Shown here: positions 58,067 to 60,930 of the stretch, one piece after another
How positions within the stretch are numbered: position 1 is the first letter of the stretch
Layout: every line of letters begins with the position of its first letter
Assembly (NCBI GenBank): GCA_938743325.2
Contig: OW568865.1
Span: forward strand, 620,001 to 684,000
DNA length: 64,000 nucleotides
Origin: Pycnococcus provasolii
Taxonomy: Eukaryota; Chlorophyta; Pseudoscourfieldiophyceae; Pseudoscourfieldiales; Pycnococcaceae
Direction: 5' to 3'
Notes under the pieces: model-generated
Told to the model about the DNA's origin: nothing
Seen by the model: only the letters and a program-made list of their open reading frames with translations
The model's database searches: none
Position numbers and translations under genes: made by a program

Positions 58067-58213
58067 CGAGGTCACCCCAGCCCCAGGGGGTTAGTGGGGT
58101 GGGATCCTCATGTGCTTGTTTCAGGATTTATTTTTTTAGTCTATGGAAAAAATACCTTAAGGTTAAGGTTAAGGTAGTACCGTGTTGCTAGCAATCAATA
58201 GCAACATTGGAAC

Positions 58214-59554
58214 ATGCGGCCAAGCTCCTATCGTTCCCATGGGCATGGGATTCATCTTAATCGTGGCATACCAGGTCGCAGTCGGTCCACTTCGCGATCT
58301 CTCCTGCACCTCGTTCGCGCCACTTTGCCCTTCATCGCTGTCACAGTTCTCATCGGGCTCGTCATACGCGTATCCCTACCAACTGGCACGTCAGCCACAA
58401 TGTCCACGAGTGGGGACACGGAACACGCACACGCGCATTCGTCTGACGTACAGCACGGCCAGATCGAAATGATGGATGATTTGGATACGTCGATCACACG
58501 TTCAGACGAAGCACCGCTCGAGGAGGCGCAGCAAGCACAGAGCACTGTGCCCAGTCCGCCGCCCGTGCCGACGACGACGACAAAAGCCTCGCCGCCGCCC
58601 CCGCCACCACCGCGAGAACGGCCGGCACAGTTCGGCGCCGAGAGAAACTGCCACGCGCTCGAAAATACAGAGCTGTGGGGCGCCGTCGTGCGCGCGGGAA
58701 CGGACGTGATTGCGCACACGTCGCAGGAGTGCTGCGCGGCGTGCCGTCGCGTTGCCGTGCTCGACGACGGAAGTCCCGGGTGTGACACGTGGGTGTGGTG
58801 CGGAAACGCGACGACGTGCCGAGAAATGTACCGACAGTGCTGGCTGAAGCGTGCCGACAAACCGATGCAGCCGGAGGTGCGTGCACGAGGCGCCGACACG
58901 CCGTGGACGAGTGGAACGCTGTTCGCGCCTCTGCCGGTGGATGCCGACGACATTCGCAGCTTCCTCATCAAAGGTGTGGGCGTGCCTGCTTCGGACGTGC
59001 GCGTTGCCGACGTCTCGCGCGTTCAGGCGAGCGCCGTGCGCTTCACAACCTCGCTCGGCTCGTTCGTTGCCATCCTTCGCCCGGATCTATCCCCACGCGC
59101 CGCGGAGGCATTTACGAATGCGACGGAAGGTGGTTCGTGCGACGGCGGTGCGTGCAACTTCTACCGCTCGGAGGCTGTGCCAGCTGGTTGGGATGAGAAG
59201 GGTTTTTACGGCCCACCGTACGCGCTGTTTCAGGGCACGCTCGGCCGATCGCGCGGGTCGCCTTCGCCGCTTCCGATGGAAGCGCATCCCGTCGTACGAC
59301 GTGGGCACCTGTGCGTGATTGGCACTGGGCCTGACTTTTTCGTCGCGTTGGCGGACCACCCGGAGTGGGGCAAGGCTCACAGCGTCGTCGGTTTCGTGCC
59401 AACGGAGGGCATGCGCGTGTTGGATGGAATTGTCGCCGCGAGTCCAACACGCGAGGACGTCTGGGGAACCACGCACGTGACTCCGTTGATTCATCCGATC
59501 TCGTTTCAAGTATCTCGCGTGGATGCGCTTGAGACTCTGGCGACGTTCGCGTGA
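58214..59554 (+). CDS. Type II membrane protein with PAN-like and cyclophilin-like domains
   Basis: A 446-residue protein. A basic tail and one helix (about 33-53, LPFIAVTVLIGLVIRVSL) anchor it, with a Pro/Thr-rich stem (105-135). Residues about 140-215 have six Cys (HTSQECCAACR, CDTWVWCG, CREMYRQCWL) as in algal PAN/apple-type domains. Residues about 255-440 are cyclophilin-like: VRFTTSLGSFVAILRPD, CNFYRSEAVP, GPPYALFQGTLGR, DFFVALADHPEWGKAHSVVGFV and GMRVLDGIV. Several of the Arg/Phe/Gln catalytic positions of true peptidyl-prolyl isomerases are changed, so activity is doubtful. Such PAN plus cyclophilin-like proteins are known in green algae and are probably Golgi or surface proteins. Confidence 0.82.
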   Translation: MRPSSYRSHGHGIHLNRGIPGRSRSTSRSLLHLVRATLPFIAVTVLIGLVIRVSLPTGTSATMSTSGDTEHAHAHSSDVQHGQIEMMDDLDTSITRSDEAPLEEAQQAQSTVPSPPPVPTTTTKASPPPPPPPRERPAQFGAERNCHALENTELWGAVVRAGTDVIAHTSQECCAACRRVAVLDDGSPGCDTWVWCGNATTCREMYRQCWLKRADKPMQPEVRARGADTPWTSGTLFAPLPVDADDIRSFLIKGVGVPASDVRVADVSRVQASAVRFTTSLGSFVAILRPDLSPRAAEAFTNATEGGSCDGGACNFYRSEAVPAGWDEKGFYGPPYALFQGTLGRSRGSPSPLPMEAHPVVRRGHLCVIGTGPDFFVALADHPEWGKAHSVVGFVPTEGMRVLDGIVAASPTREDVWGTTHVTPLIHPISFQVSRVDALETLATFA

Positions 59555-59592: not shown

Positions 59593-60063
59593 TTACAGTT
59601 CTTCTTTTTTTAGACTTCCCTTCTCAGGCACCACGTCTGAATGCTTCGCACTCTTTGTATCGTTGGCGCCGTCACTGAATTTTGCTGTTGGGAGTTTGAG
59701 TCGAATAGGTCCTTTGAAGTTGTCGACGTCTTTGACAGGCACGCCCTTTTGTGTGATGACAATTAAGCCTTGCTTTGCGAGTCGCCGCGCAACACTTCGC
59801 GTCAGTTCCATGAGCGGTCTCCATTTTTGCGGATTGTTGTTTCCATGAATCGCCCGCGGCACTTCCGACGGTCAGCACGACGACGTTGGCGCACGCGCGG
59901 CTAGTAGGGAAAACAGCGTGGACTCTAATAGGAGCTCCGAGGAGGAGAAGGAGTCATCACCGTTGTCATTTGCTCGCTTCCTCTTCTCTCCAAGTTTATT
60001 CCTATGAGAAGGAGGAGGAGGATTCAGAAGTGTTGTTGTCGTCTTGGGAGCAGGAGGCGACAT
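59593..60063 (-). CDS. DUF3253 protein with in-frame TGA, candidate selenoprotein
   Basis: From the ATG at 60063 one continuous frame runs to the TAA at 59593 and is broken only by a TGA at 59874-59872 (codon 64). Before it is ESTLFSLLAARAPTSSC; after it are PSEVPRAIHG, WRPLMELTRSVARRLAKQG and ITQKGVPV...FKGPIRLKL. Both sides together form a complete DUF3253 winged-helix-like domain, whose bacterial members read, from memory, xxCPSEVARA at this point. The TGA therefore replaces the conserved Cys, as expected for selenocysteine. With Sec the product is 156 residues. DUF3253 has no established function. Alternatives are a nonsense mutation, sequence error or ordinary readthrough. I found no convincing SECIS downstream. 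The gene is 38 bp from the converging PAN/cyclophilin stop. Confidence 0.75.
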
Positions 60064-60930
60064 AGATGATAGAATCGGAATCTGGGACTTGGAAGTTGGA
60101 AAGGAAAAAGGAATGGGAAAACCCTAACCCTCTAACCCTAACCCTAACCCGGACTCTAACCCTAACCCTAACCCTCTAACCCTACCCGATAACCCTAACC
60201 CTCTAATCCTAACCCTAACCCTAACCAGGACCCCCCAGATGACGGGTCCTGACTGAAGTTCAACGACAGAAACCTCCCTCTCAGGCTCTCACAGGTCTCC
60301 CTCACTGACCCTCAGTCCCTCTCCCAACCGGTACAACCCCACCGGCACAACCCCACCGGCCCCAGCTCTCTGAGGGGAGTCTTCCCCCGGGCCCGGGCAA
60401 AGCTTTCCCTCTTGGCATTTTGGCAGAGAGCCTCGAGGTCAAGAGACATGCAGAGAGAATAGTCAAGTGGACGGGACCCTGTTCTCTCCAGGAGGAAGGT
60501 GGGGCCGTGGCGAAGCTGAGCAAACTCCCTTTGAGCCGCCACGTTGTGACCTCACTGGGATGAATTTCGCACCGCAGATGGAGAATTTAACAACACCTCG
60601 AGGCTCAACCAACCCCGTCCCTTCCCAGCTTCCTTGGGTCCCTCGGTGCCATCGACGTCCTTAGGTTCATTACCGTAGTGAGGTGAGGATTCGCTTCCCC
60701 CTTCGTCACTCTCCGTGCCGTGGTGTCATTCTACCGACATTTATTTATTAGTGCTCCACTGGAAAAACGCGCGTGTAGGGTACTGTTTGTTCGAACTACT
60801 GTAGTGAATATAACTTTAGTACAGGATACCCTACAGTACAGTAAGAGCACGGCTTGGCTCTATCGTACTGTAGATATTATTTCGTTGATATCAATAAGTT
60901 GTAGGATTTCCGGAGCCGCCCGTAGGAATC
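60064..60930. other. Divergent promoter region with the longest CCCTAA tract
   Basis: An 867-bp gap between divergent genes. It starts with the telomere-like tract (60118-60224), then has a region of short inverted and direct repeats (CACCGGCACAACCCC, 60332-60362), and A/T-rich sequence before the ArfGAP start. Some frames are open at 60300-60660, with no recognisable content. Confidence 0.5.
60118..60224 (-). promoter_or_regulatory. Interstitial telomere-like repeat (CCCTAA)n, about 107 bp
   Basis: About fifteen AACCCTAA-type units with variants (CCCTCTAA, CCCGGACT, CCCGATAA). It lies 55 bp upstream of the DUF3253 ATG and is the longest of the telomere-like tracts in the window. Confidence 0.7.

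Follow-up and report, generated by a model that had tools for sequence, protein, structure and literature searches.

The DUF3253 gene described here, from the single-celled green alga Pycnococcus provasolii and of a family otherwise encountered in bacteria, most likely represents a new selenoprotein family whose SECIS lies within the coding region. It is located in a 64,000-nt stretch of contig OW568865.1 (positions 620,001 to 684,000), analyzed in full and termed the window below. The open reading frame (ORF) contains one in-frame TGA at the position of a conserved Cys and a SECIS-like hairpin close to its 3' end, in a genome that carries parts of the selenocysteine (Sec) machinery. A second copy of this hairpin, with unchanged helix arms, follows another UGA-containing ORF at C2. 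We consider it very probable that UGA64 is decoded as Sec through the in-ORF SECIS and that the 3' end of the gene was copied to C2, providing a putative SECIS there.

The features of the gene and its copy are summarized in Table 1. Translation of the minus-strand frame gave a single internal TGA, at codon 64, as the first-pass annotation of this DNA had reported. The 92 codons 3' of this TGA are open and conserved, and DUF3253 was matched on both of its flanks. The same annotation had held that the two halves jointly cover the full domain, and a Pfam profile search bears this out: the PF11625 match extends from profile position 4 to 81 of 81, with an E of 3.6e-24 and a score of 85.2 bits, the family cut-off being 22.1. 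This was the single DUF3253 match reported in a profile search of the 32.3 Mb genome (46 contigs), and one TGA falls within it. Codon-usage scores are neutral or negative for the first 63 codons and the C-terminal tail of the ORF. The stop of the convergent neighbour is only 38 bp from that of the DUF3253 gene, which leaves little space for a distinct 3' UTR. The window contains nine matches to TTAGGGTTAGGG, where 0 would be expected, and three of these lie shortly before the DUF3253 start; the sites are 60136-60224 on the minus strand and 5798, 12195, 37949, and 47012. They are dispersed telomere-like repeats near genes, and similar hexamer-like tracts flank several other selenoprotein loci, as seen by eye in translated flanks.

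Table 1. Features of the DUF3253 gene, its neighbour, and its partial copy at C2. Positions are those of the window unless a C2 or L117 prefix is given.
Feature	Position	Strand	Details
DUF3253 selenoprotein candidate CDS	59593..60063	-	156 residues when UGA is read as Sec64; terminates at TAA 59595-59593
In-frame TGA, candidate Sec64	59872..59874	-	Sits at the conserved Cys of C-P-S-E
Cys63 codon adjoining Sec64	59875..59877	-	Aligned residue in the 121 homologues: I, L, V, M or R
DUF3253 (PF11625) domain	59689..59928	-	Residues 46-125
C-terminal tail, 31 codons, overlapping the SECIS-like hairpin	59596..59688	-	Translation and homologue comparison
SECIS-like hairpin inside the ORF	59623..59675	-	GTGAC quartet, helix II, apical AAA, mini-stem, TGAG quartet
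Segment with a second genomic copy	59614..59724	-	Copy at C2:1070900-1071001 = L117:1501-1602
C2 ORF and copied hairpin	L117:673-1592 = C2:1070072-1070991		Translation and DNA search
Convergent neighbour gene	58202..59554	+	PAN-like and cyclophilin-like domains, each scoring slightly under the Pfam cut-off; ends in TGA

In the alignment, the residue opposite codon 64 is Cys in all 121 DUF3253 homologues examined (four from a first search and 117 more among the 120 matches listed of 2148 passing), a set that leans towards Cys because the queries carried Cys. This agrees with the earlier proposal that the TGA takes the Cys position of CPSEV, and the homologue alignment suggested as a check on that proposal thus returned the conserved Cys. 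Cys is also present in the two later matches that reach this position (P0124 and P0125) and, by sequence match only, in the solved relative 2ns0. At the DNA level, Cys was encoded at 71 of 71 readable prokaryotic loci (TGC 50, TGT 21), nine of the 80 fetched being unread by the pattern; these loci were found partly with a CPSE pattern, which favours Cys. The CPSEV residues align without a gap between the alga and its homologues. The residue aligned to Cys63 is Ile in 108 of the 121 homologues, Leu in six, Val in four, Met in two, Arg in one, and Cys in none. Five homologues (P0002, P0003, P0004, P0124, P0125) end no more than about 12 residues after the domain, and the C-terminal extension of P0005 differs from the algal tail.

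A metagenomic relative, P0123, is represented by a cluster of 10 sequences on 9 contigs. It comprises 72 residues, is 96% identical to the algal protein with three differences, begins at Met85, and shares the same stop. A full-length call would be expected were codon 64 Cys in those sequences; the call from Met85 is therefore indirectly suggestive of another codon there. No near-identical full-length Cys form was listed in the two protein searches whose length limits admit one, and no DUF3253 relative was present on the viral contigs searched. The neighbourhoods of 80 bacterial DUF3253 loci revealed no constant partner; a DASH-like photolyase, named from sequence, was a neighbour at five loci and an SDR-like gene at 12, mostly from one genus.

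In comparison with bacterial DUF3253 (PF11625; solved 2ns0), the algal protein shares a near-full-length domain and the common motif C-P-S-E...WRPLM...R...R.L...I.I.Q.G...GPIR. It differs in having UGA for Cys, a Cys one residue earlier, and a 31-codon tail with the SECIS-like hairpin, and it is without the DUF2256 part (PF10013) to which the bacterial domain is often fused. Replacement of the conserved Cys of CPSE by TGA is a departure from the family motif; it is the difference claimed for a Sec form and no failure of the fold.

The genome decodes Sec. A tRNA-Sec was identified at 69.5 bits against a cut-off of 47, with the anticodon tca assigned by ARAGORN; this family also scores above its cut-off in five of 14 control genomes, and all 14 yield weak matches. 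A second tRNA-Sec match in the alga scored 35.2 bits, below the cut-off. SepSecS was matched at 249 bits, by a profile that also matches in Bacillus subtilis, and a weaker match on C10 was left uncounted. TGA occurs in frame at the expected Sec position of two Rdx-family genes, called SelT and SelW, of four of the five GPx matches, and of SelM. Two of the four AhpC-TSA_2 genes, called SelU-like, likewise contain an in-frame TGA, in the contexts RHFG-U-VFCW and RSFG-U-FFCW. The names SelT, SelW, and SelU follow family and motif as we understand them. A genome search with AhpC-TSA yielded no new UGA gene beyond one GPx. The organism is photosynthetic, given 51 LHC-domain matches in the genome. 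On contig C31, two groups of six LHC-domain matches (133072-142609 and 360395-366434) are identical throughout in score and profile span.

SECIS candidates were sought with a custom scanner, whose pattern consists of [AG]TGAN, an inner hairpin with a closing stem, unpaired AA, and NGAN; only A or G is admitted before TGA, and only AA, not CC. Over the 922 nt that follow the TGA, the hairpin at 59675-59623 was the only SECIS-like candidate. It is situated wholly within the ORF, in its last fifth, starting 14 nt after the last base of the DUF3253 domain and 80 nt before the TAA. Helix II contains nine pairs and one bulged A. The predicted structure has the type II layout, with an NTGA/GA quartet, helix II, unpaired AA, and a mini-stem above. 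From the DUF3253 stop to 58950 the scan found no SECIS, in agreement with the first-pass annotation, to which none had been visible downstream of the stop. That annotation had also used absence of a SECIS from the 3' UTR as a check on Sec decoding. The absence holds down to 58950; the premise that the element must be in the 3' UTR fails, given the candidate inside the ORF and its copy, which follows a second ORF with an in-frame UGA. The selenoprotein reading itself is thus supported by the TGA at the conserved Cys and by the SECIS candidate within the ORF, and what falls away is the expectation of a SECIS in the 3' UTR. The 38 bp between the convergent stops fit a SECIS upstream of the DUF3253 stop.

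The hairpin was compared with nine control hairpins from the same genome (SelT, SelW, SelM, four GPx, and SelU-like L113 and L115), with which it shares the GTGA..AA..GA layout. The control quartets are GTGA in eight cases and ATGA in one, and all nine hairpins follow the stop codon, starting 49-103 nt from its first base. A second, farther candidate was listed for SelT, SelW, and GPx L013, for which the one nearest to the stop was taken; those of GPx L011 and L013, which include a long bulge or an additional arm, are less certain. The quartet-to-AA spacing is 12-15 nt in the controls and 15 nt in the DUF3253 hairpin, a value shared by four of the nine controls and outside the 10-13 nt of the SECISearch pattern as given in the part of PMC2375036 available to us. 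For SelU-like L114, which has a UGA, scanning of the 700 nt beyond the stop gave no SECIS. No UGA was read in SelU-like L115, whose SECIS-like hairpin is 68 nt after the stop; its frame reads LRHLGW followed by GTAAGT, so an intron may interrupt a Sec codon there. The Rfam SECIS model did not report the hairpin in the DUF3253 region even at E 10. Over the whole genome, SECIS_1 produced two weak matches only, the better being the SECIS of SelM at 24.6 bits; with its best match below the cut-off of 35, this model was rejected as too insensitive a detector here.

To describe how unusual the hairpin is, we defined a tier of scanner matches with a helix count of at least 10, an energy not above -15, and AA at 10-16; these thresholds were set after the hairpin had been seen, and the statistics are hence supportive rather than strict. 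The helix count of the DUF3253 hairpin is 10, and the lowest among the controls is 11. Both strands of the window (128 kb) contain three tier matches, including this hairpin. A further 19 occur in 31 of the 35 loci of the genome considered (205.8 kb, both strands), the DUF3253 gene and three overlapping loci being left out. Ten of these are at control genes, SelM counting twice through overlapping loci, and nine are elsewhere, two of the latter farther down at SelT and GPx L013. The background is accordingly 11 in about 334 kb, or about 0.01 expected in 380 nt. Of 200 dinucleotide shuffles at each length, 1 reached the tier at 380 nt and 8 did so at 922 nt; without the energy limit these counts rose to 17 and 33, respectively. 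With the protein held fixed, permutation of synonymous codons reached it in 14 of 1000 trials, and synonymous resampling, based on codon usage in three ORFs of the window, did so in 4 of 1000. The minimum free energy of a wider 86-nt stretch is unremarkable, with a z of -1.2 and 23 of 200 shuffles folding as well. The 44-nt core, chosen as the hairpin, does stand out, its z being -3.5; the cores of three controls have z values between -1.9 and -2.5.

Used as a DNA query against the genome, the DUF3253 gene returned itself and one other segment, at C2, which is 77% identical; as the search scores only the best candidates, more diverged copies may be missed. The C2 copy matches window positions 59724-59614 alone, and the reverse search returned the same pair. 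It begins with codons for DNFK..PIRLKLPT, in which a 4-base deletion breaks the frame, and continues after a 9-base deletion with the whole hairpin, which has a 3-base insertion in its apical part. The hairpin arms have been retained: with gaps left out and blocks drawn by hand, none of the 31 quartet and helix-arm positions differs between the two copies, compared with 6 of 21 apical positions and 2 of 36 positions of the coding remnant (Fisher p 0.003 for arms against apical part; 0.046 for arms against all other aligned positions). The mini-stem is changed and still able to pair. At -12.4 kcal/mol the C2 hairpin misses the -15 limit, and its helix count is 11.

The copied hairpin follows an unrelated membrane-protein ORF at a distance of 78 nt, counted from the first base of its stop, which is the usual place of SECISs in this genome. 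This ORF (L117:673-1461) encodes 262 residues and has in-frame TGAs at codons 33 and 100, one of which interrupts a hydrophobic segment midway, MSVLTILFSIPALLGS-U-CWPLLVASLFSIA. The codon score after this TGA is +24.2 in the C2 frame and -0.5 to -98.6 in the other five. Before the first TGA and between the two, the C2 frame scores +9.4 and +0.4, respectively, each the best of six; the 16 codons before the second TGA score +1.7, as against +5.4 for an antisense frame. A laxer scan between the C2 ORF and the next ORF gave no other SECIS candidate. A Pfam search with the C2 protein found no family over the cut-off, and the viral contigs searched contained no relative of it. It may be the algal membrane selenoprotein MSP. 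Most likely, the copy serves the membrane-protein gene as a putative SECIS. Copying probably went from DUF3253 to C2, since the remnant is DUF3253 coding sequence. Residue 140 is Lys in the algal DUF3253 and Gln in P0123, and the C2 copy reads CAA at the corresponding site, which suggests that Gln is older and that the copy is not very recent.

Several alternatives to Sec decoding through the in-ORF hairpin were weighed. One is that the gene is a pseudogene, its Cys codon mutated to TGA, its protein cut at 63 residues, and its hairpin a product of chance. One substitution would be enough to produce it, codon scores at the N-terminal end are negative, and no second DUF3253 domain was reported in the genome for comparison. 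Nevertheless, decay is unlikely: the TGA falls on a Cys conserved in 121 of 121 homologues examined, the codons beyond it are open and conserved, and P0123 keeps the downstream frame at 96% identity. Parts of the Sec machinery are also present, the hairpin is rare under synonymous recoding, and its copy has intact arms 3' of another UGA-containing ORF. We consider it very unlikely that UGA64 is decoded as Sec by a SECIS elsewhere, in a long antisense 3' UTR or a spliced 3' exon, with the in-ORF hairpin incidental. No other candidate exists down to 58950, the stops of the two convergent genes are 38 bp apart, and the hairpin recurs at the usual place behind another UGA-containing ORF; this has to be set against the position of all nine control hairpins after the stop codon and the ability of the scanner to overlook an element, as in the UGA gene L114. 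An assembly or sequencing error, codon 64 being really TGC or TGT in an ordinary Cys protein, is highly improbable. Although the sequence rests on one assembly, an error would leave the hairpin and its second copy unexplained, and P0123 is called from Met85 rather than in full length. Finally, it is scarcely credible that this genome reads TGA as sense or that an intron removes the triplet, as TGA also serves as a normal stop in the convergent gene, internal TGAs stand at the Sec positions of GPx, SelT, SelW, SelM, and SelU-like genes with tRNA-Sec present, and an intron would delete the conserved CPSEV residues.

The favoured reading remains a DUF3253 selenoprotein with a coding-region SECIS. 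In the mechanism proposed, the standard eukaryotic machinery would insert Sec at UGA64 in place of the conserved Cys, directed by the GTGA-type, type II-like hairpin acting as the SECIS. Ribosomes would translate through the hairpin to the TAA, such that the hairpin itself would encode the C-terminal tail. The last codons of the domain and the hairpin would have been copied behind the C2 ORF, where SECIS activity is likewise inferred. DUF3253-type domains presumably adopt a winged-helix fold. Judging from the residues alone, Sec64 would be placed just before a helix-like PSEVPR segment and may form a redox- or metal-reactive pair with Cys63. Thioredoxin reductase has a C-terminal Cys-Sec pair, to which Cys63-Sec64 can be likened. 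On this basis, the product may be a small redox- or metal-sensing protein that uses the vicinal Cys63-Sec64 pair.

The alga resembles described eukaryotic and algal selenoprotein systems in its UGA at a Cys position, its Sec machinery, and its GTGA-type SECIS. Those systems comprise 42 families according to the available portion of PMC7539508, and the available portion of PMC2375036 describes the SECISs of Ostreococcus as GTGA-type. The string DUF is absent from the main text of PMC7539508 and PMC6627142, so far as that text was available to us, and a full-text literature search that covered few subscription papers found no paper on DUF3253. In the part of PMC6627142 available, 6 kb downstream of putative stops were searched for SECISs, and some selenoproteins, especially in Mamiellophyceae, are without a predicted SECIS. 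Coding-region SECISs would be missed by the filtering stated in the available part of PMC2375036.

A SECIS inside an ORF has a viral precedent. As cited in the accessible part of PMC6769590 from Mix et al. 2007, fowlpox virus GPX4 carries its SECIS within the ORF; the same review reports that in-frame SECISs of viral and mammalian origin function in mammalian cells. On that description, fowlpox GPX4 and DUF3253 are alike in combining UGA decoding with a coding-region SECIS; they differ in that the former is a viral gene, whereas the latter is on an algal contig and a second copy of its hairpin stands behind another gene. Genes with multiple SECISs, such as Sepp1 (PMC5133445), and Cys-form genes that retain a SECIS (PMC7539508, PMC6769590) are also on record in the sections available. 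In these cases, as described there, the SECIS is repeated within one selenoprotein gene or outlasts the loss of Sec from it; the DUF3253 element, in contrast, lies with a coding remnant 3' of an unrelated UGA-containing ORF. Searches of the literature on SECIS origin, duplication, sharing, and coding-region location gave no SECIS copied to an unrelated gene among the titles and abstract beginnings of the matches listed.

If correct, these assignments add a family that is undescribed as Sec-containing in the literature searched, and a non-viral case of a SECIS within coding sequence, where the usual searches do not look. The evolution of new SECIS elements is called difficult in the part of PMC2375036 available to us, and the C2 copy suggests a simple origin for one, namely duplication of an existing element. 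We lean towards the view that SECISs can spread between unrelated genes by 3'-end copying, the DUF3253 SECIS and a piece of its coding sequence having been duplicated 3' of the membrane-protein gene, where it permitted UGA decoding or replaced an earlier means of it. Such spread, if true, would offer a concrete way for new selenoproteins to arise. The finding also raises the question of whether bacterial-type DUF3253 proteins use their Cys for redox or metal chemistry.
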